Shown here: piece by piece, positions 2,541-6,384 of the stretch
Layout of the letters: every line of letters starts with the position of its first letter
How positions within the stretch are numbered: position 1 is the stretch's first letter
Origin: Candidatus Fermentibacterales bacterium
Lineage (GTDB): Bacteria; Fermentibacterota; Fermentibacteria; Fermentibacterales; JAFGKQ01
Length of the DNA stretch: 6,432 nt
Assembly: GCA_016928495.1 (NCBI GenBank)
Contig: JAFGKQ010000038.1
Coordinates: 1 to 6,432, forward strand
Direction: 5' to 3'
The notes under the pieces: model-generated
Databases searched by the model: none
The model's input: the letters and a program-made list of their open reading frames with translations, nothing else
Told to the model about the DNA's origin: nothing
Translations under genes and position numbers: made by a program

Positions 2541-3317
2541 TCAGGCCTTGAGGGCTATGCCGACGAAGTCCCTGATCAGGCAGGCCGCGCCGGCCTCGCG
2601 GGCGAACTCGCTGAACGGGCTGTCCTCCTGGCCGACGTCATGCGAGATCAGCAGGCCGCCCTCGCGTATGTGGGGCCATGCGGTTCTGTACTCGAACAGC
2701 ATGTTCTCGTCGGTATGCTCGCTGTCATGGACGAAGATGTCTATCCGGCCCAGCCTGTCCAGAAGACCGGGCAGAGCCAGCGCGGATTCGCCGATCGTGA
2801 TGTCCCAGCGGCGCCTCAGCCTGTCCGGGATCGCGACCCCGGACTCGAGGCCGCGCGAGAGCAGGCGTTCGGGCGTAACGTCCAGGGAGTGGAGGCTGCC
2901 CCGGCCGTTCCGCTCGAGGGCGGCCAGGATGTGGATCGAGGAGTAGCCCCAGAAGACTCCCGTCTCGACGACCGTTCGGGGTGCTGCGAGCCGGCATATC
3001 GCGTAGAGGAGGCTGCACCACTTGACGACCGACCTGTCCTTGTAGCCGGGCCCGTGATCCCTCGCCAGGAGCTTCTCCAGGGCCTGCCGGTCGAGGCAGG
3101 TGATGCCGGAGCCTCCGCTCCTGAAGTCCAGCTCGCTGTATCTGAGGATGAGCCGCCCGCCCAGGCGGTAGTAGCGGAGAGGAAGGTCGCCCGAGTTGCG
3201 CCTGACAAGCCGGGCGAGCACCGATGGGCTCGCCGCGATCCTGAGCGCACTTGCCGCGAGGAACAAGGGGTCCCCCAGCAGGAGGGTCCTGAGAACTGTC
3301 ATGCCTGGCAGGGCCAT
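2541..3317 (-). CDS. Class I SAM-dependent methyltransferase, Methyltransf_24 type
   Basis: The product is a 258-residue predicted methyltransferase whose acceptor is not evident. An N-terminal helical region (1-60), possibly membrane-peripheral at TLLLGDPLFLAASALRI, precedes the Rossmann fold. Motif I is VVETGVFWGYSS (116-127), with the acidic residue after strand beta2 at D146 (HSLDV). The family-typical block at 193-228 contains IDIFVHDSEHTDENM and GGLLISHDV. The VHDSEH and ISHDV acidic/His residues are placed as in Methyltransf_24 and related O-methyltransferases, where they contribute to metal or substrate binding. The ATG at 3315-3317 is preceded by GGAAGGTGG with a 9-nt spacer; the later Met (residue 6) has no Shine-Dalgarno. 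It is the first gene of a minus-strand pair with the zinc-ribbon methyltransferase and has its own promoter candidate about 140 nt upstream. Genes of this type are common in polysaccharide and natural-product clusters, which fits the surroundings but does not prove a role. Confidence 0.9.
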   Translation of the reverse strand: MALPGMTVLRTLLLGDPLFLAASALRIAASPSVLARLVRRNSGDLPLRYYRLGGRLILRYSELDFRSGGSGITCLDRQALEKLLARDHGPGYKDRSVVKWCSLLYAICRLAAPRTVVETGVFWGYSSIHILAALERNGRGSLHSLDVTPERLLSRGLESGVAIPDRLRRRWDITIGESALALPGLLDRLGRIDIFVHDSEHTDENMLFEYRTAWPHIREGGLLISHDVGQEDSPFSEFAREAGAACLIRDFVGIALKA

Positions 3318-3640: not shown

Positions 3641-3649
3641 AACATGATC

Positions 3650-4621
3650 ATGATCAAGCTCTCCAGCGTCGTTGCCGCGGCCTCTGTGCTGCTGGCCTCC
3701 TGTGGAGGCGAGCCCTCGGGTCCCTCGGAGAACCCCTTCCCCGACAGCGTGGTCGCAGGAGTGCCCCTCGGGACCTACCCGACCGGAGTCTGCTGCGACA
3801 TCCAGGGGAACAGGGCCTACGTCGCCGAGTCGGGCGACAACAGCGTGGGGGTGATAGACGCCACGAGCTGGACCTACCTCGAGAGCGTGGCGGTCGGGAG
3901 CCTTCCCAGGAAGGTCTGCGTGCTTCCTTCCGGGCAATACGTCTATGCCAGCAACCACGGATCGTCCACGGTGTCTGTGATCGACACGGGCAGCCTCGAG
4001 GTCGTCGCCACGGTACCGACGGGAGTGAAGACCGACGGGGTCTGCGCCCTGCCGTCAGGCGGCTTCGTGTACGTCACCAACGCCTGGGACGACAACGTGA
4101 TGGTGATCGAGACCGCCGGCAACACGGTTGTCGACACCATCGAGGTCGGCGCCTATCCCAGCTCGATATGCTGCTCTCCGGACGGGCAGAACGTATACGT
4201 GGCCTGCACCGAGGACCACGCTATCGACGTGATATCAACCGATGAGAACATTGTGACGAGCTCGATAGCGGTCGGCCGGAACCCCCACGAGATGTGCGTC
4301 CTCCCGTCGAACGACTACCTGTACAACGTGAACCACGGCGACCTGTCCGTGACCGTGACCGACCTCTCTCTCGGCCTGGTGATCGACACTCTGCGCGTAG
4401 AGCACGAGCCATTCTCCGTCTGCGCCCTGCCTTCCGGGGACTACGTCTACGTCGGCCTGAAATACTCGCAGGAGAACCTCCTGGTTGTGAGGACCTCGGA
4501 CAGGAGCGTGATGGCGGGGCTGAGCGTCGGGAACTATGCCCAGGTGATGACGGCCACTCCCGACGGGCAGAACGTGCTGGTCCCCAGTCTGGGCAACGCC
4601 CTGCTCCTCGTCCTGGAATAG
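3650..4621 (+). CDS. Lipoprotein, seven-bladed YVTN/YncE-like beta-propeller
   Basis: The product has 323 residues. Residues 1-18 form a lipoprotein signal peptide: MIKL, a hydrophobic core, then lipobox LASC with C18 as the lipidated residue. Gly at +2 is compatible with outer-membrane sorting in diderms. A Gly/Pro/Ser-rich tether (19-36) leads to seven blades of 42 residues (38 to the end) of the pattern VG-xxP-xxVC-xLPSG-xYVYVxN-xxxxVxVID. This is the YVTN/YncE beta-propeller class, which usually acts outside the cytoplasm in protein or ligand binding; no catalytic residues are apparent. Cysteines at 48, 90, 132, 174, 216 and 258 occupy the same place in six blades, Met300 in the seventh. 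The alternative start at 3644 would add only Met-Ile. It is divergent from the methyltransferase pair and about 95 nt before the unknown pair, which seems to have its own promoter. The binding partner is unknown. Confidence 0.9.
   Translation: MIKLSSVVAAASVLLASCGGEPSGPSENPFPDSVVAGVPLGTYPTGVCCDIQGNRAYVAESGDNSVGVIDATSWTYLESVAVGSLPRKVCVLPSGQYVYASNHGSSTVSVIDTGSLEVVATVPTGVKTDGVCALPSGGFVYVTNAWDDNVMVIETAGNTVVDTIEVGAYPSSICCSPDGQNVYVACTEDHAIDVISTDENIVTSSIAVGRNPHEMCVLPSNDYLYNVNHGDLSVTVTDLSLGLVIDTLRVEHEPFSVCALPSGDYVYVGLKYSQENLLVVRTSDRSVMAGLSVGNYAQVMTATPDGQNVLVPSLGNALLLVLE
3761..4618 (+). repeat. Seven 126-nt coding repeats (beta-propeller blades)
   Basis: The repeat unit is 42 codons. Equivalent positions read VCCDIQG, VCVLPSG, VCALPSG, ICCSPDG, MCVLPSN, VCALPSG and MTATPDG. 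At the nucleotide level copies have diverged, although blades 3 and 6 both retain GTCTGCGCCCTGCC, so this is an old duplication maintained at protein level and not a recent tandem array. Confidence 0.85.
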
Positions 4622-4635
4622 CCGGACCGCGCGCG

Positions 4636-4664
4636 TTGACCCCCGGCGGCACCTGGCCTATGGT
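4636..4664 (+). promoter_or_regulatory. Sigma70-like promoter for the unknown two-gene unit
   Basis: TTGACC (4636-4641) is separated by 17 nt from TATGGT (4659-4664), matching five of six and four of six consensus bases. It lies in the 94-nt gap after the lipoprotein stop. Predicted transcription start is about 4671, leaving a leader of about 45 nt before the ATG at 4716. It suggests the pair can be expressed independently of the lipoprotein; read-through is not excluded, as no terminator is visible in the gap. Confidence 0.5.
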
Positions 4665-4715: not shown

Positions 4716-5336
4716 ATGTCGGAAGACTTCGAAATGCAGAGGAGGTACTTCACCTCACGGCTGAAGCAGTTCTCGAGCCGGCCGGACCTTCACAGGGCTC
4801 AGATCGCGGACTGCAACCGGTACCTGGAGATGCTCGACGAGGCCGGCTCTCCGGAGGCCTTCTCGGAAGCGATACGCCGGACCGGCAACATGGTCTCGGC
4901 CGCCAGGGCAGAGGCCCACGACAGGTACCGCAATCGCGAGGCGGTCTATCGCGCCCTGGGCCATGAGAGGAAGGCGATGGAGGACAGGCAGCGGCTCGAG
5001 ATCATCGAGTCGGCGCAGACCCATGCCGACCTGGCCTCGAAGCTGGAGTCGTTCGAGGAGACCTCGCGCCTCGCGTTCGATGAGAACAAGGCCATGAACG
5101 CCCTGAGCTCCGTGATCGAGGCCCTCTTCCACCTCTGCACCGATCCCCCGGGCTCCGGAGCTGAGGAACGCTCACTGGCGAAGCTCCGGGCCTACTGGGA
5201 GCAGCTGAGGGAGGCGGACCCGGATGCCTGCTGGGAGAGGATCATGACCTATCCGGCCTACAGGGACCGACTGATCTTCACTGATGCACAGCTCGGCGTC
5301 CTGGGAGAGAAGCACGGGGAGCTCGTCCATGGATAG
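4716..5336 (+). CDS. Unknown, mostly alpha-helical protein; first gene of a coupled pair
   Basis: I do not recognise this 206-residue protein. It has no signal peptide or membrane segment and is rich in Glu, Arg and Ala, with long amphipathic stretches (about 48-120) that may form a coiled coil or helical bundle. A short loop with Pro/Gly (143-149) separates a C-terminal part. That part contains SRLAFDEN (117-124), VIEALFHLC (133-141), EERSLAKLR (150-158) and WERIMTYPAY (173-182), and each has a counterpart in the next gene's product in the same order. The ATG at 4716 is preceded by GGAG with a rather long 10-nt spacer; the next in-frame Met (residue 7) has no better site. Its end overlaps the following start by 8 nt, so the two are probably co-translated and may interact. 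Codon use matches the rest of the window. Coding status is secure; function is unknown. Confidence 0.8.
   Translation: MSEDFEMQRRYFTSRLKQFSSRPDLHRAQIADCNRYLEMLDEAGSPEAFSEAIRRTGNMVSAARAEAHDRYRNREAVYRALGHERKAMEDRQRLEIIESAQTHADLASKLESFEETSRLAFDENKAMNALSSVIEALFHLCTDPPGSGAEERSLAKLRAYWEQLREADPDACWERIMTYPAYRDRLIFTDAQLGVLGEKHGELVHG
5316..5321 (+). promoter_or_regulatory. Internal ribosome binding site deciding the start at 5329
   Basis: GGGGAG lies inside the end of the preceding coding region, 7 nt before ATG 5329. It favours 5329 over the in-frame ATG at 5284, which has no such site and would extend the overlap to 53 nt. Confidence 0.6.
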
Positions 5337-6384
5337 CACCCTGAAGCAGATGCTGGATGGCTTCCGCTTCTCCGTGGACAACTACACGGCGACCCTGGGC
5401 CCATCCAACACGAAGCTGGCACGGGCCAGGGAGCTGCTCGAGGCGCTCGCGTCGAGGGCGGAGGATGGGGCTGACATCGCCTCGATAAGCGTAGACCCCG
5501 CGTTCGCCGAACTGGGGGCCCTGATTGGCGAACTGGCTTCGGAGCAGCCCGCTACTGCGGGAAAGGCTCCGGCAGCTCCTCCAGCAGGAGCCCCGTCTGC
5601 TGCTTCCGTCCCGCCCGCCAGCGTTCCCGCCGCCGGGTATCACATGGCCTACGACACGATGTCCGGAGCGGCTCGCGAGAGCAACGCGCCCTACTACGAG
5701 CGGATCTTCGAGATCGAGTCCGCTGCCGAGAACGCCATCCACTTCAACACACTGCTGGTCGAGGACGGAGTTCTCCTGGAGATCAGCAGGCAACCCCTGA
5801 TGGAGGCCGCCCGGGAGACGCTGGAGAAGGCGGCGGAGGCACACTCCCCAACTGTGGATTACCAGCAGAACCTCGCACTGGAGGTCTACGGGAAGGTTGA
5901 GACTGTCCCGGAGCTCGAGTACGAGGGGACGAGGATGGCCGAGCTCTCCAACGTCGAGCACCCATGGGACGCCATGTACATCGAAGTGATAGGCCTTCTC
6001 CCGGCCTGCGCCCAGGCAATAGAGGCCTTCGGCCCGACCGAGGAGAACGTCGCCAAGCTGCGCAACAGCCACAGGTTCATGGCGGACTTCATGGGCGTGA
6101 CCTGGGACCGGGTCTTCGAGGACCCGAGGTACCTGCTGTTCTGGAACCGTGTGTTCTGGCCGAAGGTCCCTGCGGAGAAGCGGGCGAGATACGGGGTGAG
6201 CAGCGCGGAAGGCTGGCGGGACCTGCTGAAGGAGAAGTTCTACGACCCATTCGTGAGGGACCAGCCTCCGGTCCGCGAGGACCCCTCCAGGGCCGTTGTG
6301 AGGTTCTGGAGAAAGGAGTACCCGTCCCGGCGCACGCTGGAGCTGCTCGAGACCCCTCCCAGGCCGGAGGTGGAGACCGGGTAG
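5329..6384 (+). CDS. Unknown two-domain protein with Ala/Pro-rich linker; second gene of a coupled pair
   Basis: I do not recognise this 351-residue protein. It appears cytoplasmic, with no signal peptide or hydrophobic membrane helix. Residues 1-72 form a helical N-terminal domain (FRFSVDNYTATLG, then ARARELLEALASR). Residues 73-103 are a low-complexity Ala/Pro/Ser linker. The rest (104-351) is a larger domain, beginning YHMAYDTMSG, with helical segments and an aromatic-rich end (DPRYLLFWNRVFWPKV, 265-280). It carries TRMAELSN (201-208), VIGLLPAC (220-227), EENVAKLR (238-245) and WDRVFEDPRY (259-268), which parallel the preceding gene's product. The ATG at 5329 overlaps the upstream TAG by 8 nt and has GGGGAG at 7-nt spacing. 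An upstream in-frame ATG at 5284 is less likely. The pair is probably a paralogous duo that may form a hetero-oligomer; that is inference from sequence similarity and gene overlap. No catalytic motif is evident. Confidence 0.8.
   Translation: MDSTLKQMLDGFRFSVDNYTATLGPSNTKLARARELLEALASRAEDGADIASISVDPAFAELGALIGELASEQPATAGKAPAAPPAGAPSAASVPPASVPAAGYHMAYDTMSGAARESNAPYYERIFEIESAAENAIHFNTLLVEDGVLLEISRQPLMEAARETLEKAAEAHSPTVDYQQNLALEVYGKVETVPELEYEGTRMAELSNVEHPWDAMYIEVIGLLPACAQAIEAFGPTEENVAKLRNSHRFMADFMGVTWDRVFEDPRYLLFWNRVFWPKVPAEKRARYGVSSAEGWRDLLKEKFYDPFVRDQPPVREDPSRAVVRFWRKEYPSRRTLELLETPPRPEVETG

Follow-up and report, generated by a model that had tools for sequence, protein, structure and literature searches.

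Adjacent genes A and B of Fermentibacterota code for divergent paralogues with a common helical core

The locus described here raises the question of what two adjacent genes without recognizable database relatives code for, and whether their products are related to each other and act together. Genes A and B lie in a metagenome-assembled genome of Fermentibacterota (2.31 Mb, 337 contigs, 81% complete) whose named relatives are Candidatus Fermentibacteraceae, Aegiribacteria and Sabulitectum. In the window, which is the whole stretch of 6,432 nucleotides that was analysed, the pair is organized as follows.

4636..4664, + strand: sigma-70-like promoter site TTGACC-17-TATGGT 5' of the A/B pair, a consensus match only
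4716..5336, + strand: gene A (open reading frame, 206 aa, all-helical product; coordinates include the stop)
5329..6384, + strand: gene B (open reading frame, 351 aa; coordinates include the stop)
5329..5336, + strand: overlap of genes A and B, 8 nt, read from the sequence

The two open reading frames and their overlap are as reported in the preliminary description of this DNA. It proposed that they are a duplicated pair whose products share an undescribed carboxyl-terminal domain, carry four common motifs in the same order and begin with a similar helical segment (ending in LEML or LEAL).

The gene pair and its comparison with known families

A consensus scan for sigma-70-like sites identified one against 0.1 expected, which counts consensus matches only. 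Protein A shares 49-67% identity with its close relatives and protein B 62-71%. Their dN/dS ratios (~0.08-0.10 for A between close relatives; ~0.13 for B in one close pair) indicate that both genes are under purifying selection. A search of the same genome gave no second significant copy of A or B. The highest 19-residue hydropathy mean over all members of the two families is 1.79, with no strongly hydrophobic segment by this measure, and no catalytic residue set stood out among them.

Elsewhere in the window, a lipoprotein-like YNCE-type beta-propeller gene (3644-4621, + strand) adjoins the pair on its 5' side and was not found as a conserved neighbour in relatives. The window also codes for a B12-binding radical SAM protein (225-1523, + strand) and two SAM methyltransferases (1558-2445 and 2541-3317, both - strand), one of them with an amino-terminal zinc-ribbon-like stretch.

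The shared domain had been called undescribed, and the database searches agree with this. Pfam-A gave weak matches only, far from the gathering cut-offs, for A, B, 38 close relatives and the distant pairs A'/B', A''/B'' and A'''/B''' introduced below. Eight pair members had no significant match in NCBIfam, PHROGs and PADLOC (best E 0.025-0.084), the PADLOC defence models giving nothing better than E 0.025. In the PDB sequence-profile search one pair-family alignment (A9) reached E 0.0045 over 92 residues of a single unrelated-looking chain, and the best value for a second (A10) was 0.11. The AlphaFold2 single-chain model of A has a pLDDT of 87 and a pTM of 0.55; that of B is of moderate confidence only (pLDDT 74.5, pTM 0.41). 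Foldseek gave no PDB match with E below 0.1 (best values: A 0.16, B 2.4), and the fold searches (A and B in the PDB, A in a viral library) led to generic helical bundles only. The best structural neighbours in the PDB have Z scores of 6.9 (A) and 8.2 (B), which for helical bundles is too low to be informative. The literature found on these lineages consists of general studies, their gene-level content aside.

Distribution and genomic context of the pair

Pairs of the window type (type 1) are present in 20 of the 42 Fermentibacterota genomes examined, some of them cut by contig ends; in one further genome B lies at a contig edge and the position of A would fall off the contig. Two of the 42 genomes (G026 and G033; loci L051 and L052) code for a divergent type-2 pair, A'/B', in which A' is directly upstream of B' and B' matches B in profile comparison (90.6%, E 1.3e-6). 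When 385 genomes were searched with a profile of B and B', relatives turned up in two members of a second phylum, again with an A homologue directly upstream. These proteins, A'' and B'', match A over its full length (98.1%, E 7.6e-14) and B (95.6%, E 1.2e-8). B-type genes occur in 10 of the 14 genomes of the second phylum, one of which, G386, carries a type-2-like pair, A'''/B'''. Both G026 and G033 were assembled from metagenomes, and their pairs could be contaminants, though the type itself is supported by G386. Neither the B nor the A profile gave a convincing match in ~340 genomes from other phyla; three further genomes had weak matches to the A profile (E 0.002-0.008), which were taken as chance similarity of helical stretches.

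Decayed copies of type-1 A, interrupted by a stop codon, were found at L022 (G017:C130:16595-16915) and L023 (G033:C41:6847-7110), from which it follows that the pair can be lost. G033 combines such a remnant with an intact type-2 pair and could be a case of replacement of one type by the other. The pair is missing from about half of the Fermentibacterota genomes, incomplete assemblies included, and is therefore dispensable.

The surroundings of the pair are housekeeping genes, and no neighbour conserved across lineages would name a process. In six related Fermentibacterota genomes (loci L132, L133, L135, L138, L142 and L146) genes for the large and small subunits of an aconitase-like enzyme are found 5' of the pair. 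In three genomes of one family of the second phylum (G161, G298 and G396; loci L108, L107 and L121) the pair is preceded by genes for a formate-tetrahydrofolate ligase and a membrane protein of 254-256 aa. Neither the aconitase-like nor the ligase neighbourhood is general across lineages, and both were set aside as functional clues. The membrane protein scored, which has no Pfam match, was considered as a third paralogue and rejected (hhalign 1.0% and 0.5%).

An overlapping two-gene operon, patchy presence (20 of 42 genomes, and two with type 2) and decayed copies in G017 and G033 are features that would suit a toxin-antitoxin or defence module, in which one subunit is harmful or senses phages and the other neutralizes it. 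We regard this as improbable: PADLOC, Pfam and PHROGs yielded no match, the pair sits among housekeeping genes, no relatives of A or B were found in collections of viral contigs, phages and plasmids, where one profile had diverged too far for pattern scanning, and the two proteins are both large and have one fold in common.

The common core of A and B

Compared directly, A and B are at chance level (Smith-Waterman score 36, with shuffled sequences averaging 35.2, p ~0.40; best BLASTP E 0.19). Profiles built from close relatives, with 20 sequences for A and 20 for B, did no better (probability 0.2%, in a different register). Such results are what would be expected if A and B were unrelated helical proteins, their motifs due to chance and helical composition and their pairing to the operon alone. 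The shallow profiles have a Neff of ~2, too shallow to decide, and for this reason their result was not counted as a refutation.

Deeper profiles draw on the pairs A/B, A'/B', A''/B'' and A'''/B'''. The two alignments were built apart: B members were recruited for their similarity to B, whereas A members either resemble A or were taken for their position upstream of B. The profile of A, A' and A'' matches that of B, B' and B'' with 90.5%, E 1.4e-6 and a score of 50.8 (hhalign), or 43.3 if restricted to match columns. Reversed profiles reach 16-17 and the maximum of 450 shuffled profiles is 32.8. Four other alignment settings gave 71-90% in the same register. When every member of the window family was left out, A' and A'' still matched B' and B'' (91.3%, E 9.6e-7). 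The pair A'''/B''' was found after this comparison and serves as an independent test: A''' alone matches the three-type B profile with 79.5% (E 1.5e-5) and B''' alone the three-type A profile with 76.6% (E 2.1e-5). The four A types together match the four B types with 95.4% and E 1.8e-8, A residues 12-193 pairing with B residues 104-277. The similarity between A and B becomes significant because the distant relatives of the pair deepen the profiles. A profile comparison with no significant match had been named beforehand as the outcome that would speak against paralogy; this is what the shallow profiles gave, and the distant relatives reversed it.

Helix order in the two separately predicted models agrees with this match. 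Among 278 offsets, and on helix order only, the models agree best at offset 90, a few residues away from the 86-87 of the profile alignment. With one register obtained from independent subsets and from five settings, a matching helix order and failing shuffled and reversed controls, the view that A and B are unrelated is very improbable and appears largely refuted on these comparisons. A and B are best described as divergent paralogues beyond pairwise recognition, a relationship that is supported by the alignments of their families and in which the preliminary description is upheld.

The deep alignment also places the motifs. All four had been located correctly in both proteins, motifs 2 and 3 of B requiring the leeway with which they had been defined. 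The following three pair residue for residue.

5112..5138, + strand: A 133-141, VIEALFHLC, second motif, aligned with B 220-227 (deep-profile alignment)
5986..6009, + strand: B 220-227, VIGLLPAC, second motif (deep-profile alignment)
5163..5189, + strand: A 150-158, EERSLAKLR, third motif, aligned with B 237-245 (deep-profile alignment)
6040..6063, + strand: B 238-245, EENVAKLR, third motif (deep-profile alignment)
5232..5261, + strand: A 173-182, WERIMTYPAY, fourth motif, aligned with B 259-268 (deep-profile alignment)
6103..6132, + strand: B 259-268, WDRVFEDPRY, fourth motif (deep-profile alignment)

In this alignment V133/I134 correspond to V220/I221 and C141 to C227, E151 to E238 and AKLR 155-158 to AKLR 242-245, and A W173..Y182 to B W259..Y268. 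The first motif (A 117-124, B 201-208) is off by three residues, S117 aligning with A204 and not with T201, so that the proposed pairing holds for three motifs of the four. The letters are partly specific for the window: other A proteins have x-K-F in place of AKLR and TKLS in place of SRLA. The exact letters overstate conservation; the motif positions are right.

The common region is larger than the carboxyl-terminal domain first proposed, spanning A almost completely and the middle part of B. The layout of B is that of a half-copy, a linker, an A-like core and a carboxyl-terminal extension.

4749..5294, + strand: A 12-193, region common with the B core (hhalign 95.4%, E 1.8e-8)
5350..5538, + strand: B 8-70, amino-terminal half-copy with helices 3-23, 28-45, 50-54 and 57-70 (hhalign)
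5539..5619, + strand: B 71-97, Ala/Pro-rich linker, mostly low-confidence prediction (AlphaFold2 block pLDDT 30-69; residues 76-92 below 50)
5638..6159, + strand: B 104-277, A-like core (same hhalign match; helix order)
6172..6381, + strand: B 282-351, carboxyl-terminal extension (comparison of B relatives, AlphaFold2 model)

The amino-terminal unit of B matches both the amino terminus of A (71%, E 3.6e-5, score 34.2 against a shuffled maximum of 24.7) and the core of B (73%, E 3.2e-5, score 34.4 against 22.7) in hhalign, in support of the amino-terminal resemblance noticed earlier. In G041 (L050 / L141) the reading frame of gene B is broken into two that overlap near residue 290, either by a frameshift or by misassembly.

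The carboxyl end of B varies between lineages. Type-1 B of the second phylum (B'') has a different module of ~174 aa in place of the extension found in the window, without a Pfam or PDB sequence match. In L101 (2494-3015) and its relatives this module, in which numerous Pro, Gly and aromatic residues are invariant, looks beta-rich by eye. Such lineage-specific modules, confined to B in type 1, together with the smaller and simpler A, are consistent with A being a dedicated chaperone or assembly partner of B, which would be the active subunit by way of its carboxyl-terminal module; adjacent or overlapping genes also favour co-translational assembly. We consider this rather unlikely. Type-2 A has an extra carboxyl-terminal extension as well, and the common core is more simply explained by two halves of one complex.

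Co-inheritance and the proposed complex

Trees were built for 27 A/B pairs from the two phyla and the two pair types. A is directly upstream of B in all 27. The two trees have 14 of 24 splits in common and their distances correlate with 0.93, a value reached in none of 2000 permutations; type-1 pairs of Fermentibacterota, taken by themselves, give 0.93 as well. This mirroring partly reflects shared genome ancestry. Both trees join the type-2 pairs of the two phyla (support 100 and 82), which implies that the pair types predate the split of the phyla or that A and B were transferred together from one phylum to another. The duplication is ancient and predates the split of the two pair types: a duplicated gene pair had been rightly proposed, but it is not the product of a local event.

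For two homologous cores whose genes are neighbours and co-inherited, the simplest explanation is a complex in which each forms one half. From the constant adjacency and the mirrored trees we infer that A and B act together, and we think it probable that they are the subunits of one obligate cytoplasmic helical complex that serves as a scaffold or a regulator. An ancient gene duplication would have given A and B the same helical core, and the two would be made together from one operon. Their homologous cores would then pack against each other, most likely as a pseudo-symmetric heterodimer or a higher heteromer. A would be the simpler half; B would add its amino-terminal half-copy, a flexible linker and the lineage-dependent carboxyl-terminal module, and thus supply a variable end that probably binds a target. 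The lack of a strongly hydrophobic segment or a recognizable catalytic set suggests a scaffold or regulator in the cytoplasm and not an enzyme, though an unusual enzyme activity stays conceivable. Physical association, stoichiometry and a scaffold or regulatory role are all putative properties of the complex.

More tentatively, A and B may represent a family of helical complexes of two subunits that is new, has a fold of its own and two types, derives from one duplication before the two phyla diverged (or spread as a unit) and serves a process outside all described systems. The family can now be defined precisely by its shared helical core, fixed gene order, two pair types and known distribution. 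With a name for it, two hypothetical genes could be annotated in about half of the Fermentibacterota genomes and most of the second-phylum genomes examined, incomplete assemblies included. The family also lends itself to tests as an ancient duplication whose two products are past pairwise recognition and still adjacent and co-inherited, and illustrates that motifs noticed by eye can be right at a pairwise chance level, the proof being supplied by intermediate pair types.

The A and B models resemble BAR domains, ESCRT-III, chemoreceptor hairpins and three-helix bundles in local helix arrangement and in nothing more. EsxA and EsxB of the WXG100 family are divergent paralogous all-helical proteins, coded by adjacent co-expressed genes, that form a heterodimer. 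A and B share with them the adjacent genes and the paralogous helical products; a dimer is proposed for A and B, which would then work most like these helical heterodimers. However, a WXG100 protein is a hairpin of helices, ~100 aa long and with W-x-G at the turn, whereas A and B have 206 and 351 aa, W-x-G occurs in one of 27 A and two of 27 B members, and no secretion gene was seen near the pair. Membership in the WXG100 family was rejected on the lengths and on the motif being missing in nearly all members. With respect to paralogous subunit pairs in general, A and B differ in that no member of their families has been described and that their association is a putative one; they resemble these pseudo-symmetric heteromers, which arise from gene duplication, in their homologous cores, constant adjacency and mirrored trees.
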